Assembly (NCBI RefSeq): GCF_021044885.1
Contig: NZ_JAJNOD010000001.1
Span: 310,001 to 374,000, forward strand
Direction: 5' to 3'
DNA: 64,000 bases
Source: Microbacterium nymphoidis
Lineage (GTDB): Bacteria > Actinomycetota > Actinomycetes > Actinomycetales > Microbacteriaceae
In this document: positions 26,726 through 52,434 of the stretch, one piece after another
How positions within the stretch are numbered: position 1 is the first letter of the stretch
Layout of the letters: each line of letters starts with the position of its first letter
Program-made: the position numbers and the translations under genes
Notes under the pieces: model-generated
Database searches by the model: none
The model's input: the letters and a program-made list of their open reading frames with translations, nothing else
What the model was told of the DNA's origin: nothing

Positions 26726-26797
26726 CTGGGGTACCTGGACTCGAACCAAGAACAACTGAACCAGAATCAGCCGTGTTGCCAATTACACCATACCCCA
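26726..26797 (-). tRNA. tRNA-Gln (CTG)
   Basis: Read on the minus strand, a complete cloverleaf of 72 bases is visible. The acceptor stem is TGGGGTA with TACCCCA, and the D-arm contains TAATTGGCAAC. The anticodon loop TTCTGGT carries anticodon CTG, the stem above it is GCTGA/TCAGT, and the T-arm contains GGTTCGAGTCC. The 3' CCA is not encoded. A hairpin terminator follows. Confidence 0.95.
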
Positions 26798-27592: not shown

Positions 27593-28432
27593 TCATCCGC
27601 GGGGCGGGCACGCCTCGAACACGTACTCCGCGGAATCGGGGGTGTGAAGGTCCCGATCGCGCAGGATCATGAGCGTCGGAGAATCTGCGTCGGCGCACAT
27701 CTGCGCGAAGGACCGGGGCAGCTCGTCGGTGTACTCGATGTCCAGCACGGCATCGCCGTACACGTCGCGATAGGCCGCGCATTCCTCGTAGGCGGCGCAC
27801 TCCTCGGTCACCGCGAAGTCGAAGCCGGCATCCGCGCGCAGTCGGGCGGCATGCTCGGCGGTGTTCTTCTGGCCGACCGCGAGACCCGCGTCATGGGCCA
27901 CATCTGACAGCATCCGGGCCAGATCGATGTTGTCCTCCAGGCTCAGCGCCTCCGCTGACCGGGTGAAGCTGTCGAGGTTGTCGAACTCGACCGCCTGGAA
28001 CCCGTCATCGGCACATCCGCGCAGCCACGGCGCGACCACGGCGACGATCGCGGCGCGGCGGTCGGGGGTGGAGGTGTCCAGCAGCACCTCGTCGGGCCAG
28101 TCGGGATCGTGGACGAGGTCGCCCTCGTCATCGGTGAGAAGCACGGACGACGGCCAGGAGCCGGCCTCGCCCGGCTGGGTCTGGAACGCGTTCACGTAGC
28201 AGATCGTGTAGGCGTCCGGCGCGGGCGGTGCCGTGCGGTCCCGCGCCACGATACCGACGCCGGGGCCGAGCTCGTACGGACCGCCCAGCTGGTAATCGAA
28301 CGTCGTTGTCTCGGGCCACGGAGTTCCGGCGCCGGCAATGTCGCCGACGTCGGATCCCGTCGCAGCGCAGCCGGAGAGCAGCAGCACCGTTCCGAGCGCG
28401 GCGATGGTGATCACGGGGCGGAGGGCGGACAC
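27593..28432 (-). CDS. GH114-like endo-alpha-1,4-polygalactosaminidase lipoprotein
   Basis: A 279-aa lipoprotein with lipobox LLSGC (Cys at residue 22), followed by a TIM-barrel of the GH114 type. The barrel shows WQLGG-like YQLGGPYELG, TICYVNAF, the acidic FQAVEFDNLDSF near residue 150, GQKNTAEH and AVTEECAAY. GH114 enzymes cut galactosaminogalactan-type polymers. It would act outside the cell, bound to the membrane. An internal 15-bp duplication produces EECAAYEECAAY near residue 210. The start is GTG 28432. Confidence 0.85.
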   Translation of the reverse strand: MSALRPVITIAALGTVLLLSGCAATGSDVGDIAGAGTPWPETTTFDYQLGGPYELGPGVGIVARDRTAPPAPDAYTICYVNAFQTQPGEAGSWPSSVLLTDDEGDLVHDPDWPDEVLLDTSTPDRRAAIVAVVAPWLRGCADDGFQAVEFDNLDSFTRSAEALSLEDNIDLARMLSDVAHDAGLAVGQKNTAEHAARLRADAGFDFAVTEECAAYEECAAYRDVYGDAVLDIEYTDELPRSFAQMCADADSPTLMILRDRDLHTPDSAEYVFEACPPRG

Positions 28433-30894: not shown

Positions 30895-31887
30895 TCAGGA
30901 CTTGTAGTCGTACATCCGCTCGTCGGCACGGCGGATGAGCGTATCCAGGTCGTCCTCCGGGGAGCGCTCGGCGATGCCATAGCTGAACGGGACCGGTGAC
31001 GTGCGGCGCACGCGGGCCATGATGCTGCGTGCCGTGCGTGCATCGGTCCCGGTCAGCATCACGACGAATTCGTCTCCGCCGAGCCGGCCGACCACGTCCG
31101 TATCGCGGATGGCAGCACCGAGATGGTGGGCCAGCGCCTGCAGCGCCGTGTCACCGGCGTGGTGGCCCGCGGCGTCGTTGACGGCCTTCAGACGGTCGGC
31201 GTCCACGAGCACCACCGTGAGCGATTCGTCGCGACGGTGTGCCCGGCGCACCTGGTCTCCGCCCACGCGATGCAGACCCCGCCGGTTGAGGACACCGGTG
31301 AGCTGGTCGCCGTCGACCCGACGGCGGTAGTACGCCGAACCACGGATGCCGAGCACAAGACACAGCACCGAGAAGATCGTGAATTCCGCGACGGCGATGG
31401 GGGTGAGCACGCCACCTTCCGGCGGGAGCCCGCGAGCCGCGGCTGCACCGACGGTCGCGGCCACCGCCGGATATACGATCAGGCGTGCGAGCCAGGGCGG
31501 CGAGAACCAGCCCAGGTAGAGCGCGACGAGCGGGAACTCCCGCAGGCAGAGCAGAGTGTGAGCGGTGTCGGTGCCGAAGACGGCGAACACAGCGAGCATG
31601 ACGGCGGGAATGAGAGCGGCGGTCATCCCCACCCAGGCGGGGAGGCGTTCACGGAGCACGACGGCGGCGATCACCACGACTGCGCCGAGGAGGATGCGGG
31701 CTCCGGTGTAGACGAGGAGGTCCAGCGTCGGCTGCGGCTCCTCCAGCACGATGTGCGCGAGGGCGCTCAGCACCAGCGCGCCGGCGAGAGCGCCGGTGGC
31801 GAAGGCGTAGGCGCGTTCTTCCCCGCTGAGCCGAGCGCGCAGCGAACGGCTCGCGCGCTGTGCGGCGGCCGATCGGTCACCCGTCAT
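30895..31887 (-). CDS. Membrane-bound diguanylate cyclase (GGDEF)
   Basis: A 330-aa c-di-GMP synthase. Residues 25 to about 180 hold five or six membrane segments forming a sensor of unknown ligand. The GGDEF domain covers residues about 190-330, with an intact GGDEF at 270-274 and an RxxD inhibitory I-site (R261, D264) exactly five residues before it, so both catalysis and product inhibition are expected. GAAAGGAGGAGAG precedes ATG 31887, a very strong RBS. It is divergent from a stand-alone EAL protein, followed by a GT2 synthase gene, which suggests local control of exopolysaccharide. Confidence 0.93.
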   Translation of the reverse strand: MTGDRSAAAQRASRSLRARLSGEERAYAFATGALAGALVLSALAHIVLEEPQPTLDLLVYTGARILLGAVVVIAAVVLRERLPAWVGMTAALIPAVMLAVFAVFGTDTAHTLLCLREFPLVALYLGWFSPPWLARLIVYPAVAATVGAAAARGLPPEGGVLTPIAVAEFTIFSVLCLVLGIRGSAYYRRRVDGDQLTGVLNRRGLHRVGGDQVRRAHRRDESLTVVLVDADRLKAVNDAAGHHAGDTALQALAHHLGAAIRDTDVVGRLGGDEFVVMLTGTDARTARSIMARVRRTSPVPFSYGIAERSPEDDLDTLIRRADERMYDYKS

Positions 31888-32079
31888 CTCTCCTCCTTTC
31901 GCGGCCTCGTCTTCCCGCCCGCACCGGGTGCTCGGTGCAGGGGCTCACCAGAGAGACGGGGGAGTGCGCGTTTTATGACGCGAGTTGCGACGCGGATGCC
32001 GAGGCCGGCGCCGTTGCGGATATGCAGCATGCAGTAGACGCAATAGAGTGAGCACGGCCAACAGAGGCGGGAGGCGCAC

Positions 32080-32715
32080 GTGGCGGTTGTGTTCCAGCCC
32101 ATCGTCGACCTCCGTGACGAGAGCGTGGCGGGCGTCGAGGCCCTGTCGCGCTTCGCGGATGGGCGCACGCCCGAGGAACATCTCGCGCAGGCGCGCGCAC
32201 GAGGAACCCTCGTGGAACTGGAGCTCTCGTTGCTGGCCGACATCCGGCGCGCAGCGGCGGCGATCCCCGACGGATGGCTGATCACCTGCAACGCGTCCGG
32301 ACCCACCTTCGATGCCCTGGAGAACGAGCGGGTGGCCTTCGACCGCCGCCTGCGCTGGGGGCTCGAGCTCAGCGAGCTGTCCGCCCCCGCCGCCTGTGCC
32401 GCCGCGCGCCGCATCAGCACCGCGCTCGGCTGTCTCCTGCTGCTGGACGACGCCGGTGCCGCACACTCGACGGTCGAGCGGATCCAGGAACTGCGCCCCG
32501 ACATCGTGAAGCTCGATCGGTTCATCGTGGCCACGTACGAGGACGACGTCGCCACGCAGGCGCTCGCGGCGCGCCTCTGCGATGCGGCACGCGCCGTCGG
32601 TGCCCGCCTCCTCGTGGAGGGTATCGAGACCCCGCGACAGGCAGCGCTGGCTCGCGATCTCGGGGCCGAGTACGCCCAGGGATATCTCTTCGGGCGACCG
32701 GCACCGATCGCCTGA
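32080..32715 (+). CDS. Stand-alone EAL-domain c-di-GMP phosphodiesterase
   Basis: A 211-aa protein that is only an EAL domain; it degrades c-di-GMP to pGpG if active. Seen motifs: FQPIVDL, EALSRF (EAL at 20-22), ITCNASG, LELSELS, KLDRF, LLVEGIET and AQGYLFGRP, so most metal and catalytic residues are kept. The DDFG loop is changed to DDAGAA, which may reduce activity or dimer signalling. The start is GTG 32080 with GGCGGGAGG upstream. The domain is shorter than usual (about 240 aa). It lies opposite the GGDEF gene and upstream of the glycosyltransferase. Confidence 0.9.
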   Translation: MAVVFQPIVDLRDESVAGVEALSRFADGRTPEEHLAQARARGTLVELELSLLADIRRAAAAIPDGWLITCNASGPTFDALENERVAFDRRLRWGLELSELSAPAACAAARRISTALGCLLLLDDAGAAHSTVERIQELRPDIVKLDRFIVATYEDDVATQALAARLCDAARAVGARLLVEGIETPRQAALARDLGAEYAQGYLFGRPAPIA

Positions 32716-32931
32716 GGACAGGCCTCTCCGGCGGCGTCCCAATGAGATTCACAGGACAGAGTGCCCGATCCGGCCCCGCAGCACCGTGTAATAGAAGATG
32801 CAGCAGTGACGTGACTGCCGGTGGGCCCCCGTCCTCCGGCACCGTTCACGAGCGAGTGGCCGGTGGTCCCGATCCACGTGGTGTCGTTCGTGGCCGGCAC
32901 GCGTCCTGAATCAGAGGAGGGGAGATTTGCT

Positions 32932-34401
32932 GTGTCCGGCCACAGATCTATCCGGCGTCCCGGACTGACGCGCACCGGGCGCCTTGCGGGCGTCATCGTG
33001 ATTGCGATCACCCTGCTGGCGGCGGCGCTCCTGATCGCGGTGATAGCCCTCACCGCGCCCCGCCCGGTGTGGGATCCCCGGGAGGGCAACCTGCTCGGAT
33101 TCGAGTTCCGGTACGACGCCGATGGCCCGGCCATCGGACTCCTGATCGGTGCCGTTCTCTTCGCATCTGCCGCGGCTGCAGCCGTCGTGCTCTACGAGCT
33201 GCACGTCACCCGCCGGTCCCGGCGTACGCCACCGGACATCGACGCGCGCCCGCTGGCGCCTCGGCGCATCATGGCCGCGACGCGTGGCGTCTTCGACGGT
33301 CCGGTCACCATCACCGCACTCATCCCGGCACACAACGAGGCCGACAACCTCCCGGCCACCCTCGCCTCGCTGCGCGCGCAGACCACGCCTCCCGAGCGGA
33401 TCATCGTCATCGCGGACAACTGCACCGATGACACGGTAGCTCTCGCCCGCGGTGCGGGAGTCGAGGTGTTCGAGACCGTCGGCAACACCCGGAAGAAGGC
33501 TGGAGCGCTGAACCAGGCGCTCGGTGAGCTCCTGCCCCAGCTCGGCAACAACGACGGCGTTCTCGTGATGGACGCCGACACCCGCTTCGCCACCACCCGG
33601 TTCCTGCGCGTGGCGCGACGGCGGATGACCGCGGACCGCGCGCTGATGGCTGTGGGTGGACTGTTCCTCGGAGAGCCGGGACATGGCCTGCTGGGACAAT
33701 TCCAGCGCAACGAGTTCACCCGATACTCCCGGGAGATCCGTCGCCGCCGCGGCAAGGTGTTCGTTCTCACCGGCACGGCCAGCGTGTTTCGGGCCCCCGC
33801 CCTGCGCGCCGTCGCCGATGCGCGCGGGGGGCTGATCCCGGGCAACGCGGGCGAGGTCTATGACACCGTGGCGCTCACCGAGGACAACGAGATCACCATC
33901 GCGATCAAGAGCCTCGGCGGGCTCATCGTCTCCCCGCCGGAGTGCGTCGTGGTGACGGAGCTGATGCCGACGTGGCGGATGCTGTGGAAGCAGCGGCTGC
34001 GGTGGCAGCGTGGAGCGCTGGAGAACCTGGGGGAGTACGGGCTGACGCCGACGACGGTGCGCTACTGGTCGCAGCAGATCGGAATCGGGTACTCGGTGAT
34101 CGCGCTCACCTCGTACTTCGCGCTGATCATCACGATGCTGCTCGCGCTGGATCAGTGGGTGTGGTTCACGTTCTGGATCGCCATCGGACTCGTGTTCATG
34201 ATCGAACGTGTGGTCACGGTGTGGAGCGGCGGCTGGCGTGCTCGCCTGCTTGCTGCGCTGGTGATCCCCGAGCTGGTGTACGACTTCTTCTGCGACGTGG
34301 TTTTCGTGAAAGGCGTGATCGACATGGCATTCGGACGGGAAGCGACCTGGTCGCATCTCCAGCAGCCCGCCGGCCGCGCCGATGCGGAGGCGACGGCATG
34401 A
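32932..34401 (+). CDS. Processive family 2 glycosyltransferase (PNAG-synthase-like)
   Basis: A 489-aa membrane glycosyltransferase. Two N-terminal membrane segments precede the GT-A domain, which begins near residue 124 (VTITALIPAHNEADNLP). DAD at 214-216, TED at 316-318 and QRLRW at 354-358 complete the D,D,D,QxxRW set of processive enzymes such as cellulose, hyaluronan and poly-N-acetylglucosamine synthases. Three C-terminal membrane segments follow. No PilZ domain is visible. The start GTG 32932 has GAGGAGGGGAG nine bases upstream. It is coupled to a 74-aa membrane protein and lies beside GGDEF and EAL genes, so c-di-GMP control is likely but not shown. Confidence 0.9.
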   Translation: MSGHRSIRRPGLTRTGRLAGVIVIAITLLAAALLIAVIALTAPRPVWDPREGNLLGFEFRYDADGPAIGLLIGAVLFASAAAAAVVLYELHVTRRSRRTPPDIDARPLAPRRIMAATRGVFDGPVTITALIPAHNEADNLPATLASLRAQTTPPERIIVIADNCTDDTVALARGAGVEVFETVGNTRKKAGALNQALGELLPQLGNNDGVLVMDADTRFATTRFLRVARRRMTADRALMAVGGLFLGEPGHGLLGQFQRNEFTRYSREIRRRRGKVFVLTGTASVFRAPALRAVADARGGLIPGNAGEVYDTVALTEDNEITIAIKSLGGLIVSPPECVVVTELMPTWRMLWKQRLRWQRGALENLGEYGLTPTTVRYWSQQIGIGYSVIALTSYFALIITMLLALDQWVWFTFWIAIGLVFMIERVVTVWSGGWRARLLAALVIPELVYDFFCDVVFVKGVIDMAFGREATWSHLQQPAGRADAEATA

Positions 34402-34622
34402 GCGTTTTCGCGGCGGGAGGAACCATGCCGGCGGGAGTCCTGCTTCCCGAAGCCGTGCTGAACAGCCCGTGGTTCGCGGTGCTCGCCGGATTCGTCGCTG
34501 TGAACACCGTCGTGTACGTCTGTCTGGCGGTGTTCAAGATGCTGCCGCCGCCGCGGTGGCGCTGGCGGGGTCGCTCCCGCCGATCGGAGACGCGCAGCAT
34601 CCATCCGGACGGACCCCTCTGA
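34398..34622 (+). CDS. Small single-span membrane protein coupled to GT2
   Basis: A 74-aa protein whose ATG at 34398 overlaps the GT2 stop by four bases. One membrane segment covers about residues 25-47 (FAVLAGFVAVNTVVYVCLAV); the C-terminus is strongly basic (RWRWRGRSRRSETR), placing it in the cytoplasm. Size, topology and coupling suggest an accessory subunit of the polysaccharide synthase, in the way PgaD supports PgaC, but I see no sequence link to PgaD. Confidence 0.75.
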   Translation: MSVFAAGGTMPAGVLLPEAVLNSPWFAVLAGFVAVNTVVYVCLAVFKMLPPPRWRWRGRSRRSETRSIHPDGPL

Positions 34623-34717
34623 CACGCGTCCGGACCGTGCGCGAGGTCGCCTAGCGCGTTCCGGGCCGTCGCGCCACCCCCGTGATCCGGCGGCGGCAGC
34701 CTGCCTACCGTGCCGGT

Positions 34718-35335
34718 ATGACTGAGCGAATGACCGTACTGGTACTCAACTGCACGCTGAAGCCCGCACCAGCGGAGTCGAGCACGGGGGCACTCGCCGG
34801 ACTCGTCTCCGGCGCCCTGTCCGACCTCGGGTGTGATGTCGACACGGTGCGCGTGGTGGATCACAGTGTGCAGGCCGGCGTCGAGCGTGACATGGGCCCC
34901 GGCGACGGGTGGCCGGCGCTGCTGCGGCAGGTGCTGGACGCGAGCATCCTCGTGTTCGCGACGCCGACCTGGGTGGGTCAGCACTCCAGCGTGGCACAGC
35001 GCGTGATCGAGCGCCTCGATGCCGAACTCTCGCAGACCGACGAACGGGGCCGGCCGAGCCTCTACGACCGTGTCGCCATCCCGGTGGTGGTCGGAAACGA
35101 GGACGGAGCGCATCACATCGTCGGAATCCTGGCCCAGACGCTGGGAGATGTCGGCTTCACGATTCCGGCCCAGAGCGGTGTCTACTGGAACGGCGAGGCC
35201 ATGGGCAAGACGGACTTCATCGCGCTCGACACCGTGCCGGAGAGTGTCCGTTCGGCGGCGCAGACCGCGGCGGCGAATGCGATGCATCTGGCCCGCCTCC
35301 TGCGCGGGCACCCGTATCCCGCACCCGCGGAGTGA
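34718..35335 (+). CDS. Flavodoxin-like NAD(P)H-dependent FMN reductase family protein
   Basis: A 205-aa flavodoxin-fold protein. The phosphate-binding loop is in LVLNCTLKPAPAESSTGALAG near residues 8-28; ILVFATPTWVGQHSS near residue 75 is the second FMN-contact loop. It probably reduces quinones or another small acceptor in the cytoplasm. ATG 34718 has no clear RBS, and a TACCGT hexamer lies 7 bases upstream, so the mRNA may be leaderless. It converges with a low-complexity protein gene across a short tandem array. Confidence 0.85.
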   Translation: MTERMTVLVLNCTLKPAPAESSTGALAGLVSGALSDLGCDVDTVRVVDHSVQAGVERDMGPGDGWPALLRQVLDASILVFATPTWVGQHSSVAQRVIERLDAELSQTDERGRPSLYDRVAIPVVVGNEDGAHHIVGILAQTLGDVGFTIPAQSGVYWNGEAMGKTDFIALDTVPESVRSAAQTAAANAMHLARLLRGHPYPAPAE

Positions 35336-35339
35336 ACCA

Positions 35340-35460
35340 GGGCGTCGGTTCCTGGAATCCTGGGTCGGGTCGGGGTGCCCTCGGGCGTGGCTTGCTGCGT
35401 CGGTTCGGGGTGCCCTCGGGCGTGGGTTCCTGGGTCACATCGGGGTGCCCTGGGGCCGTT
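35340..35460. repeat. Tandem repeats between convergent genes
   Basis: Three copies of CGGGGTGCCCTCGGGCGTGG-like sequence, separated by GTTCCTGG or TTGCTGCG segments. The third copy holds the last codons and stop of the minus-strand gene that ends at 35435, so the array looks like copies of that gene's 3' end. Confidence 0.75.
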
Positions 35461-36016
35461 GGGGGTCGCGGAAGTCGAACTCGGGGTCCGTGAGCGGCGG
35501 CACCTCCGGATCCTCTTCGGGAGCCGGCGCCCGCTCCGGTGCGGTCGGCGGCGCGATGTCGGGATCGCGCTCGGGGACCTCCTCCGGGTGGGTGGCGGGG
35601 CTACGCAGCGGATCACTCCGGCTGGGCTCGGCCTCCCGCTCACTGCCGGCCTCGCCGTGCAGGCCGTCGTCCGTGCCGGGCAGCTGATCATCGGTGTCCG
35701 CCTCGGGCGGGGGTGATTGCCCGCCGCCGCTGTCGTCGTCCGCCGTCCGATCGGTGCGTGAGGGCTTGACGTTCGGGGGGAGCAACCCCTGGTCTGCGAC
35801 ATCCCTCACGCTCCCGGTGTTGGTATCGGCCCCGGTGTTGGTGTTGGTTCCGGTGTTGGTGTCGGTCGCCGTGTCGGTGTTGGTGTTGGTGTTGGTGTTG
35901 GTGTTGGTCGCCGTGTCGGTGTCGGTGTCGGTGTCGGCCTCGCCGGCTTGTCTCCGGTCCGTGCGGGAGGGGTGAACGTTCGGAGGCAGCAGGCCTTCGT
36001 CGTAGATCTCGCTCAT
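35435..36016 (-). CDS. Hypothetical low-complexity protein with duplicated LLPPNV motif
   Basis: A 193-aa hydrophilic protein with no signal or membrane segment. It carries two copies of a short motif, [14 protein letters not shown] at about residues 8-21 and [14 protein letters not shown] at about 74-87. Between them lies a run of Asp-Thr and Asn-Thr pairs encoded by a near-perfect hexamer-like repeat. The C-terminal half is rich in Pro, Glu and Asp. The start 36016 has GGAAGGA upstream, supporting real translation. I do not recognise it. It may be an unstructured linker or scaffold. Confidence 0.7.
35814..35937. repeat. GTGTTG/GTGTCG hexamer array inside low-complexity gene
   Basis: About 20 units of GTGTTG or GTGTCG, with a few GCC or TCC interruptions. 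On the minus strand they encode alternating Asn/Asp and Thr. Unit length keeps the reading frame on expansion. Confidence 0.9.
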
Positions 36017-36111
36017 GATGTGCTTCCTTCCGTTCATCTCAGCGTCATGCCGCCACATGTGCGCCGCTACAGGGTTGACAAGGGCCCGCATCGCCGTCCG
36101 GATCGGCGACA

Positions 36112-37530
36112 TCACCGTCCCAGCACCAAGGAGACGATCCCGAAGGCGCCCGCCGCGCACATGATCACCGCCGTGCCCCAGCCGAGGATCCGGGCCGCCC
36201 ACCCGTTGCGATGCTCGCCCATCAGCCGCCGATCGCCGGTGATGAGCATCAGCACGATGATGAACGGACCCGCGGCGATGCCGTTGATGATGGCGGACAG
36301 CACAAGCAATCCAATGGGATCCACCCCGATCACCGAGAGCGCGACCGCGACGGTCAGACCCACCAGCAGAAGGGCGTAGAAGGTGCGCGCCTGGTGTGGC
36401 TTGCGGTCCAGGCTCCACGGCCTGCCGAGGAGCGCAGCGAAGCCCGCGGCGCCGGAAGCGGCCAGTACGGGGACGGCGAGCATCCCGGATCCGATGAAGC
36501 CGATCGCGAACAGGGCGAAGGCGAAGTCTCCCGCAATGGGCTGCAGCGCGCTGGCCGCGGCCTGGGCCGAGTCGACCTTCTGATGGTGCACGCCCAGCGT
36601 CGCGGCTGCCGAGACCACGATGGCGAACATGATGGCGACCGAGAAGAGCATGCCGATGATGACGTCGATCCGGCCGAGCCAGAGTGCCCGGCGTGCTCCG
36701 GCCGGTGACTGGTCGTCGAGGGTCAGCGGCTTCGCGGATCCCCTGCGCTGTCCGCGTCCGCGAGATCGTGCGTCCGAGCGCAGCATCTCTTCACGTTCCT
36801 CGGTCTGCCAGAAGAACATGTACGGGCTGATCGTGGTGCCGAGCACCGCCACCACAAGACCCAGATACCGGGGCTCCCACTCGAAGCCGCGACCGAGCAG
36901 CCCGCCGAGGACATCGTCCCAGTCGACCGACGCCACGATCACGACGCCGACATAGGCGAAGAGCACCAGGCACAGCCATCTGAAGATGCGCGAGATCCAC
37001 GCGAACGAGCCGCGCACCACCACGAAGCCGATCACCACCCCCGCGATCAGCGACCACAGCGGCGCCGGACCGGCGTGGAGCAGGCTCATGCCTTCGCCGA
37101 TGGCCACGAGATCCGCCGCCGCATTGACGCTGTTGGCCACCAGCAGTGCAGCCAGCAGCACGGCGATCCACGTGCGGGCACCGCGCTGGAACCGGCGACG
37201 GATCAGTGCTCCGAACGAATCCCCGGTGGCCAGCGTCATCCGCTCGCAGGCCTCCTGCACGACGATCATGAGGGGAAGGGTGAGCGGCACGGTCCACAGC
37301 AGGCCGGTGCCGTACAGGGCGCCGGACTGCGCGTACGTGGCGATTCCGGAAGGGTCGTCGTCGGCGGCCCCCGTGACGATGCCGGGCCCCACCGCCCGCA
37401 GAGCGCGGCGGACGCCGCCGCCGCTGTCGCCACCACGCCCTGCGGGCTGCTGATCACCCTCTGCAGACGAGGGATCCCGTTGCGGAGGGGGAGAGCTCAA
37501 TCGTCCTGGACCTCCCACCGTCCGCTCCAC
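36112..37530 (-). CDS. Nramp-like divalent cation transporter, atypical motifs
   Basis: A 472-aa membrane protein with about 11 segments and the overall Nramp (SLC11) layout. [19 protein letters not shown] near residue 50 is the first helix, where canonical Nramp has DPGN; here it is DPSG. The sixth helix has [11 protein letters not shown] where canonical proteins have MPHN. The metal-binding Asn and Met are therefore missing, as in divergent Nramp-related clades that include magnesium transporters, so the ion is uncertain. The N-terminal 40 residues are a polar extension. The ATG at 37530 overlaps the FHA-like gene by 34 bases. Confidence 0.85.
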
Positions 37531-52361: not shown

Positions 52362-52434
52362 GGCCCCATCGTATAGCGGCCTAGTACGTCGCCCTCTCAC
52401 GGCGGTAACGCGGGTTCGAATCCCGCTGGGGTCA
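52362..52434 (+). tRNA. tRNA-Glu (CTC)
   Basis: A 73-base cloverleaf. The acceptor stem is GGCCCCA with TGGGGTC, and the D-arm is ATCGTATAGCGGCCTAGTAC. The anticodon loop CTCTCAC carries CTC, the stem is TCGCC/GGCGG, and the T-arm is GCGGGTTCGAATCCCGC. A CC follows the discriminator A. A strong terminator lies just downstream. Confidence 0.96.

Follow-up and report, generated by a model that had tools for sequence, protein, structure and literature searches.

How might a bacterium without a PilZ match in its genome place the synthesis of an exopolysaccharide under the control of cyclic dimeric GMP (c-di-GMP)? The question is raised by a locus of Microbacterium nymphoidis, a member of the Microbacteriaceae (Actinomycetota), found in a 64,000-nucleotide stretch of DNA here termed the window (assembly GCF_021044885.1, contig NZ_JAJNOD010000001.1, positions 310,001 to 374,000). 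Open reading frames (ORFs) and domain searches place four genes side by side at window positions 30895-34622, encoding a GGDEF protein, an EAL protein, a family-2 glycosyltransferase (GT2) and a 74-amino-acid (aa) membrane protein, here called SMALL (Table 1). The answer towards which we lean, with somewhat more confidence than doubt, is that the locus serves as a c-di-GMP switch dedicated to a single exopolysaccharide synthase, with the GT2-SMALL complex as the receptor. This answer draws on the observed gene content and motifs, the constant coupling of GT2 to SMALL, and the co-occurrence and adjacency of both with c-di-GMP genes.

Table 1. Features of the c-di-GMP and exopolysaccharide locus, in window coordinates.
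Feature	Position	Strand	Remarks
Putative membrane diguanylate cyclase	30895..31887	-	Hydrophobic N-terminal region (~26-181) and GGDEF domain with RxxD I-site
Intergenic region of the divergent GGDEF and EAL genes	31888..32079	.	No Rfam match at gathering threshold
Stand-alone EAL protein, putative c-di-GMP phosphodiesterase	32080..32715	+	Catalytic motifs kept; loop 6 DDAG
Processive-type GT2	32932..34401	+	Model with two membrane helices at the N-terminus and three at the C-terminus; D,D,D,QRLRW
SMALL, 74-aa single-pass membrane protein	34398..34622	+	ATG overlaps GT2 stop as ATGA; undescribed family
SMALL transmembrane helix, residues 24-48	34467..34541	+	V33, N36 and T37 in 43/43 distinct motif-bearing sequences
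SMALL C-terminal motif R62-S-E-T-R66-S-I-H-P70	34581..34607	+	Predicted cytosolic; candidate part of a c-di-GMP sensor

The individual genes are much as a sequence-only reading of this DNA had described them. The membrane GGDEF protein, to which that reading had ascribed a full I-site, matches its Pfam family with an E-value of 2.6e-31 (109 bits against a family cut-off of 23.8) and contains an intact GGDEF motif at residue 270 preceded by the I-site RDTD (RDTDVVGRL-GGDEF). Its N-terminal half is hydrophobic and matches no Pfam family, and a ribosome-binding-like AAAGGAGGAG lies immediately 5ʹ of its ATG. The GT2, likewise recognized earlier as processive by its D,D,D,QxxRW signature, contains D162, D214/D216, D318 (in TED) and QRLRW at 354, so that the D, DxD, TED and Q(Q/R)xRW motifs of processive synthases are all present together with the predicted membrane helices. 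Its structure model has a mean predicted local distance difference test score (pLDDT) of 62, with ten-residue blocks of 54-93 within residues 121-350. The top Foldseek matches are an archaeal mannosyltransferase (18% identity), then hyaluronan synthases (13-15%) and cellulose synthase (14-20%), with template modelling scores (TM-scores) of only ~0.3-0.4 over the model. No solved sequence relative of the GT2 was found at E <= 1e-8.

EAL phosphodiesterases share the catalytic residues E, N, E, DD, K, E and Q and a canonical loop 6 of DDFG(T/A)GYSS. The stand-alone EAL protein of the window (Pfam E 4.5e-32, 111.7 bits against a cut-off of 31.3) retains these usual catalytic motif residues and reads DDAGAAHS in loop 6, which confirms the DDAG pointed out earlier and departs from the canonical form. 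That DDAG might be a peculiarity of the window copy was considered and rejected, as all 18 rows of the same EAL type (the window and 17 others, one of them a duplicate) read DDAG or DDVG; L070 and L079, stand-alone EALs that belong to other types, have DDFG. Such a uniformly altered loop 6 favors the idea that the EAL protein is itself a receptor or trigger enzyme, one that would bind c-di-GMP and contact the synthase, with degradation of the nucleotide not its main role. We consider this very unlikely, given that the catalytic residues are kept, that canonical DDFG EALs are found at other loci, and that neither an EAL nor a GGDEF gene lies nearby in 18 of the 47 readable GT2-SMALL loci (window included). 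Separately, in Sinomonas, EAL-like domains whose catalytic motifs are broken (DHYG, DCYG) lie beside intact ones (L007:4167-5996 and L014:4151-5161).

In the M. nymphoidis genome (3.77 Mb, 99.94% complete), a single gene matches GGDEF and a single gene matches EAL, and both belong to the locus; the search took in PF07238 PilZ but no other type of receptor, nor HD-GYP phosphodiesterases. The absence of PilZ, noted earlier for the locus, extends to the whole genome, in which PF07238, the only PilZ-related model tried, has no match. Because the only GGDEF and EAL matches of the genome adjoin GT2-SMALL, this arrangement suggests that c-di-GMP here serves mainly to switch the neighboring synthase through an unfamiliar sensor.

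Across related genomes the GT2 gene is rare and patchy. It was found in at least 11 of 198 genomes of a genus sample (E <= 1e-150), at least 18 of 199 of a family sample (E <= 1e-60; 15 score above 640 bits), at least 13 of 396 of an order sample (E <= 1e-150) and at least 11 of 396 of a phylum sample (E <= 1e-80; five above 640 bits). These samples overlap, and the counts are minima, as the search scored the best 4-8 candidates per genome and may have missed carriers. Three of the 18 family matches cover only the catalytic part, and no SMALL is present there. Among PLSDB plasmids, there is one matching record, from Embleya, at E <= 1e-60 (46% identity across 71% of the query).

Where the GT2 occurs, c-di-GMP genes accompany it. 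All 11 genus carriers have both an EAL match and a strong GGDEF match (best E <= 1e-14), compared with a strong GGDEF in 34 of 187 non-carriers (Fisher test, p = 2.9e-8; p = 1.4e-5 for any GGDEF and 1.7e-8 for EAL); sample-wide, 75 of 198 genomes have any GGDEF match, 45 a strong one and 43 an EAL match. The cut for a strong match was chosen after 30 genus genomes with only weak matches had been seen. These weak matches (20-39 bits, in frames mostly of ~400-700 aa) are an observation in their own right and perhaps represent a different family whose fold resembles that of GGDEF. In the family sample, all 15 carriers above 640 bits, two of which also belong to the genus set, are GGDEF-positive, versus 108 of 199 genomes overall (p = 6.5e-5). 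A GGDEF was matched in 14 of 16 further carriers, at least one of which (G590) is apparently the same assembly as a genus carrier, and in neither G560 nor G600; the genome-wide GGDEF counts cover carriers other than nine found only in the order sample. PilZ matches occur in only 2 of 48 other carriers, a scarcity that fits a PilZ-free receptor.

The pairing is also one of position. In 11/11 genus carriers, no more than 2 kb separate the GT2 from a GGDEF domain, where random placement would lead one to expect ~0.05 genomes even within 5 kb. In the same 11, the sole EAL match of the genome adjoins the GT2, and seven have no other GGDEF gene (in G1073, one such gene holds two domains). A scan of GTDB contigs with the GT2 returned 35 loci, 13 of them close (L003-L015, 57-70% identity in the best segment) and the other 22 short or weak matches that were set aside; by alignment, 12 of the 13 close relatives are 48-70% identical to the window GT2. 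Among the genus members, G1043 has a GT2 nearly identical to that of L008, a record named as Microbacterium, which points to this genus as the probable one. Among the 47 GT2-SMALL loci, c-di-GMP genes occur within 6 kb in 29, in several architectures: EAL and GGDEF genes downstream of GT2-SMALL in most genus members, a GGDEF/EAL pair in divergent orientation upstream in L079 and the window, and composite GGDEF-EAL proteins upstream or downstream elsewhere. L070 and L098, the latter with a short flank, have an EAL alone within reach. Some flanks extend over less than 6 kb (e.g., L098, L078, L108), which makes nearby absence uncertain there. Three loci (L003, L004, L104) contain single frames of ~670-900 aa with two tandem GGDEF units, such genes being present twice in L004 and in L104.

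On the GT2 tree, the label of c-di-GMP adjacency needs 10 changes, at least six of them forced by starred branches, and therefore the pairing was gained or lost repeatedly; as few as 10 changes were reached in 0-1 of 500 shuffles of the label. For these counts, L102 (same contig as L003) was dropped from both tree and locus count, L077 (whose contig ends past the GT2) stands unlabeled in the tree, L080-L082 (no SMALL) are labeled as having none in the tree and lie outside the 47, and the near copies L008 and L121 are both counted. When the ORFs of 29 loci (window included) were compared, the groups present in 24-29 loci consisted of the GT2, its overlapping frames, and frames joined through GGDEF/EAL. 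The remaining shared groups comprise one unidentified family in nine loci, an FMN-reductase-like group in five, and others in six at most.

These patterns bear on whether the c-di-GMP genes and the synthase have any functional link, or are neighbors by chance or through co-transfer on a genomic island. The patchy distribution of the GT2 fits horizontal transfer, and the EAL and GGDEF types seen here do occur in its absence. However, adjacency in every genus carrier, its recurrence in different architectures in other genera and the lack of any other widely conserved neighbor make the absence of a link scarcely probable. The connection between c-di-GMP and the synthase that the sequence-only reading had raised is thus strengthened by co-occurrence in genus and family, by recurrent adjacency and by the several architectures, although control of the polymer itself stays a proposal.

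The most constant partner of the GT2 is SMALL, which follows it directly on the same strand in 47/47 loci. It matches no Pfam or NCBIfam family; when 13 members were scanned singly against Pfam (E <= 1), stray matches of one member each were obtained and no PgaD model, and a comparison with PDB sequences gave four weak matches (E 0.21-2.1), none convincing. A tail motif, R..[TS][RM][SGN]I[YHDF]P, by a pattern composed after the sequences had been viewed, ends SMALL in 44/47 loci (43 of 46 plus the window). Among 43 distinct motif-bearing sequences, R62, I68 and P70 of the tail and P50 are invariant, as are the helix residues of Table 1; T65 and R66 are found in 42 and E64 and S67 in 39, and residues 51-60 are variable. 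The structure model predicts one helix and an unstructured, low-confidence tail. Seven Arg/Lys residues fall in residues 49-74 and none in residues 1-23, a bias indicating that the tail probably faces the cytosol, the side of the GT2 catalytic domain. GT2 residues that covary with loss of the motif occupy 24 scattered columns and outline no clear contact site.

Three loci, each a single case, depart from this pattern. The SMALL of L013, a metagenome-assembled genome (MAG) without a GGDEF match, lacks the tail motif. In L012, a Coriobacteriia MAG, the SMALL helix begins a multi-helix protein (L012:2066-3304, within a 438-aa open frame) that ends in a GGDEF domain with RxxD and an SGDEF motif and lacks the tail motif. 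In L116, a SMALL-like helix is fused to the C-terminus of the GT2 (584-aa frame, L116:8244-9995), and the tail motif is absent.

We infer the enzyme activities, c-di-GMP binding by GT2-SMALL, activation and polymer production itself, which may be ordered as follows. The membrane GGDEF protein would make c-di-GMP on some input signal, and the EAL protein would remove it. The nucleotide would activate the GT2 post-translationally through the GT2-SMALL complex rather than a PilZ domain: the single helix of SMALL may pack against the GT2, and its Arg-rich cytosolic tail, RxETRSI[Y/H]P, may bind c-di-GMP, the GT2 domain or both, in the manner of PgaD and PgaC. Once active, the GT2 would polymerize a UDP-sugar and extrude the chain. 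The earlier suggestion that the small coupled protein might be the receptor gains from the conserved and probably cytosolic motif; the I-site of the GGDEF protein or a transcription factor could still fill that role.

Several observations weigh against a GT2-SMALL receptor. Most of the 18 loci without a c-di-GMP gene within 6 kb retain SMALL and its motif, and G560 (96% complete) keeps the tail motif, with T for E64, and has no GGDEF match. Conversely, three genus members (G1060, G703, G930) carry such EAL and GGDEF types with no GT2 match, and therefore such enzymes can serve something else; in G703, they adjoin, as judged by eye, apparent sugar-uptake genes and a beta-galactosidase. Two carriers do have a PilZ match. 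The Fisher and placement tests treat genomes as independent and so ignore shared ancestry, and the invariance of R62, I68 and P70 is partly by construction because the conservation count excludes the three SMALLs that lack the motif (L012, L013, L116). Finally, the R-x-x-x-R spacing of the SMALL tail recalls PilZ receptors, whose motif is RxxxR (PMC8461298, in excerpt), but the likeness is loose and weak: no PilZ model matches, and an Arg-rich tail yields such spacing easily.

The main rival to GT2-SMALL as receptor is the GGDEF protein itself, in which c-di-GMP bound at the RxxD I-site would alter a direct contact with GT2-SMALL. The I-site of the window protein is intact, and the L012 fusion, with its RxxD, joins SMALL to a GGDEF domain in nature. 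Bacillus ydaJKLMN, with YdaK, is a Gram-positive PilZ-less GT2 synthase under c-di-GMP control. Listeria pssA-E is another, with an established I-site GGDEF receptor, PssE (PMC4125290, in excerpt). Both systems differ from the locus, where such control is a proposal, in that a dedicated I-site receptor has a degenerate GGDEF, whereas the only GGDEF gene of M. nymphoidis has an intact motif and SMALL is the sole constant partner of the GT2. Most other locus copies likewise keep the active-site motif, in a comparison whose pattern misread four rows (L008, L121, L113, L114), and several copies have no clear RxxD (e.g., L078, L079). Together with the loci that keep SMALL and its motif with no c-di-GMP gene nearby, these differences lead us to regard a GGDEF receptor as improbable.

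Alternatively, c-di-GMP might act on transcription of GT2-SMALL via a distant regulator, and SMALL might be merely a structural subunit. Actinobacterial regulators of transcription that respond to c-di-GMP exist, BldD among them, the 216 bp between the EAL and GT2 genes leave room for a promoter, and motif-less SMALLs exist (L013, L116). On the other hand, the window contains no match to a c-di-GMP riboswitch at the Rfam gathering threshold, and transcriptional control would assign no role to the conserved cytosolic motif, even if contact with the GT2 alone would account for it as well. On balance, with BldD-like regulators outside the scope of the genome search, we judge this explanation unlikely. 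The sole Rfam matches of the window are tRNA genes at 26726-26797 (-) and 52362-52434 (+).

Returning to GT2-SMALL as receptor, its closest mechanistic counterpart would be PgaC/PgaD, by analogy and not by membership. PgaC has two N-terminal and three C-terminal helices, a plan that the model of the window GT2 appears to match. Both systems pair a GT2 with a small membrane protein encoded adjacently, and neither shows a known c-di-GMP motif. In PgaC/PgaD, c-di-GMP binds both subunits and activates synthesis, by a mechanism that a 2021 review describes as still to be worked out (PMC8461298, in excerpt). However, the window GT2 scores 63.1 bits against TIGR03937 (PgaC/IcaA), far below its cut-off of 422.3, and SMALL, with one predicted helix and the RxETRSI[Y/H]P tail, matches no PgaD model at E <= 1; for these two reasons, GT2-SMALL is not a member of the PgaC/PgaD family. 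Moreover, across the 29 loci compared, no candidate for PgaA or PgaB is widely recurrent near the GT2.

Other synthases are more distant. Hyaluronan synthases, which make and export their polymer with a single GT2, follow the archaeal mannosyltransferase among the top fold matches but are only 13-15% identical, with TM-scores of ~0.4; to our knowledge, they are not controlled by c-di-GMP and have no accessory SMALL protein. BcsA shares the processive GT2 fold and is a cellulose synthase under c-di-GMP control (PMC8461298, in excerpt). Unlike the window GT2, BcsA has its own PilZ domain, a match to PF07238 being absent from both the window GT2 and its genome, and the two align structurally at 14-20% identity with TM-scores of ~0.3-0.4. 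Synthase-dependent operons, including Gram-positive ones, are described in PMC7112194, the excerpted text of which mentions none of the GT2-SMALL kind.

This two-gene synthase bears on how PilZ-less synthases sense c-di-GMP. The conserved nine-residue tail of SMALL is an immediate mutational target, and genomes where nothing beyond one cyclase gene and one EAL gene was found offer a clean setting in which to separate cause from effect. More tentatively, and with less confidence than we place in the switch as such, SMALL may be the founder of a new class of c-di-GMP receptor. Its tail, disordered alone, would form with the GT2 surface a site that gates polymerization, giving a PilZ-free minimal sensor across Actinomycetota that in some bacteria may be the sole c-di-GMP output. 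Among publications on c-di-GMP with Microbacteriaceae or Microbacterium, titles and the opening lines of abstracts reveal none on c-di-GMP signaling in the family, and the locus would therefore give Microbacteriaceae a first candidate c-di-GMP output. No such system is recognizable in the titles and abstract openings of work on c-di-GMP in Actinobacteria or on small membrane proteins with glycosyltransferases, a survey whose scope mostly excludes subscription journals.

The surroundings of the locus contain further genes. A GH114 glycoside hydrolase gene at 27593-28432 (-; Pfam 1.6e-49) lies ~2.5 kb from the GGDEF gene; it was rejected as part of the system, as it falls in no group common to at least three of the 29 loci. 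Just 3ʹ of SMALL is an NADPH-dependent FMN-reductase-like gene (34682-35335, +), relatives of which are found near the GT2 in L071, L072, L075 and L083. Beyond it, an open frame at 35435-36418 (-) contains a long Thr/Asp/Asn low-complexity stretch (TDTDTD...TNTNTN) and may encode a repeat-rich protein or be an overlap artefact.

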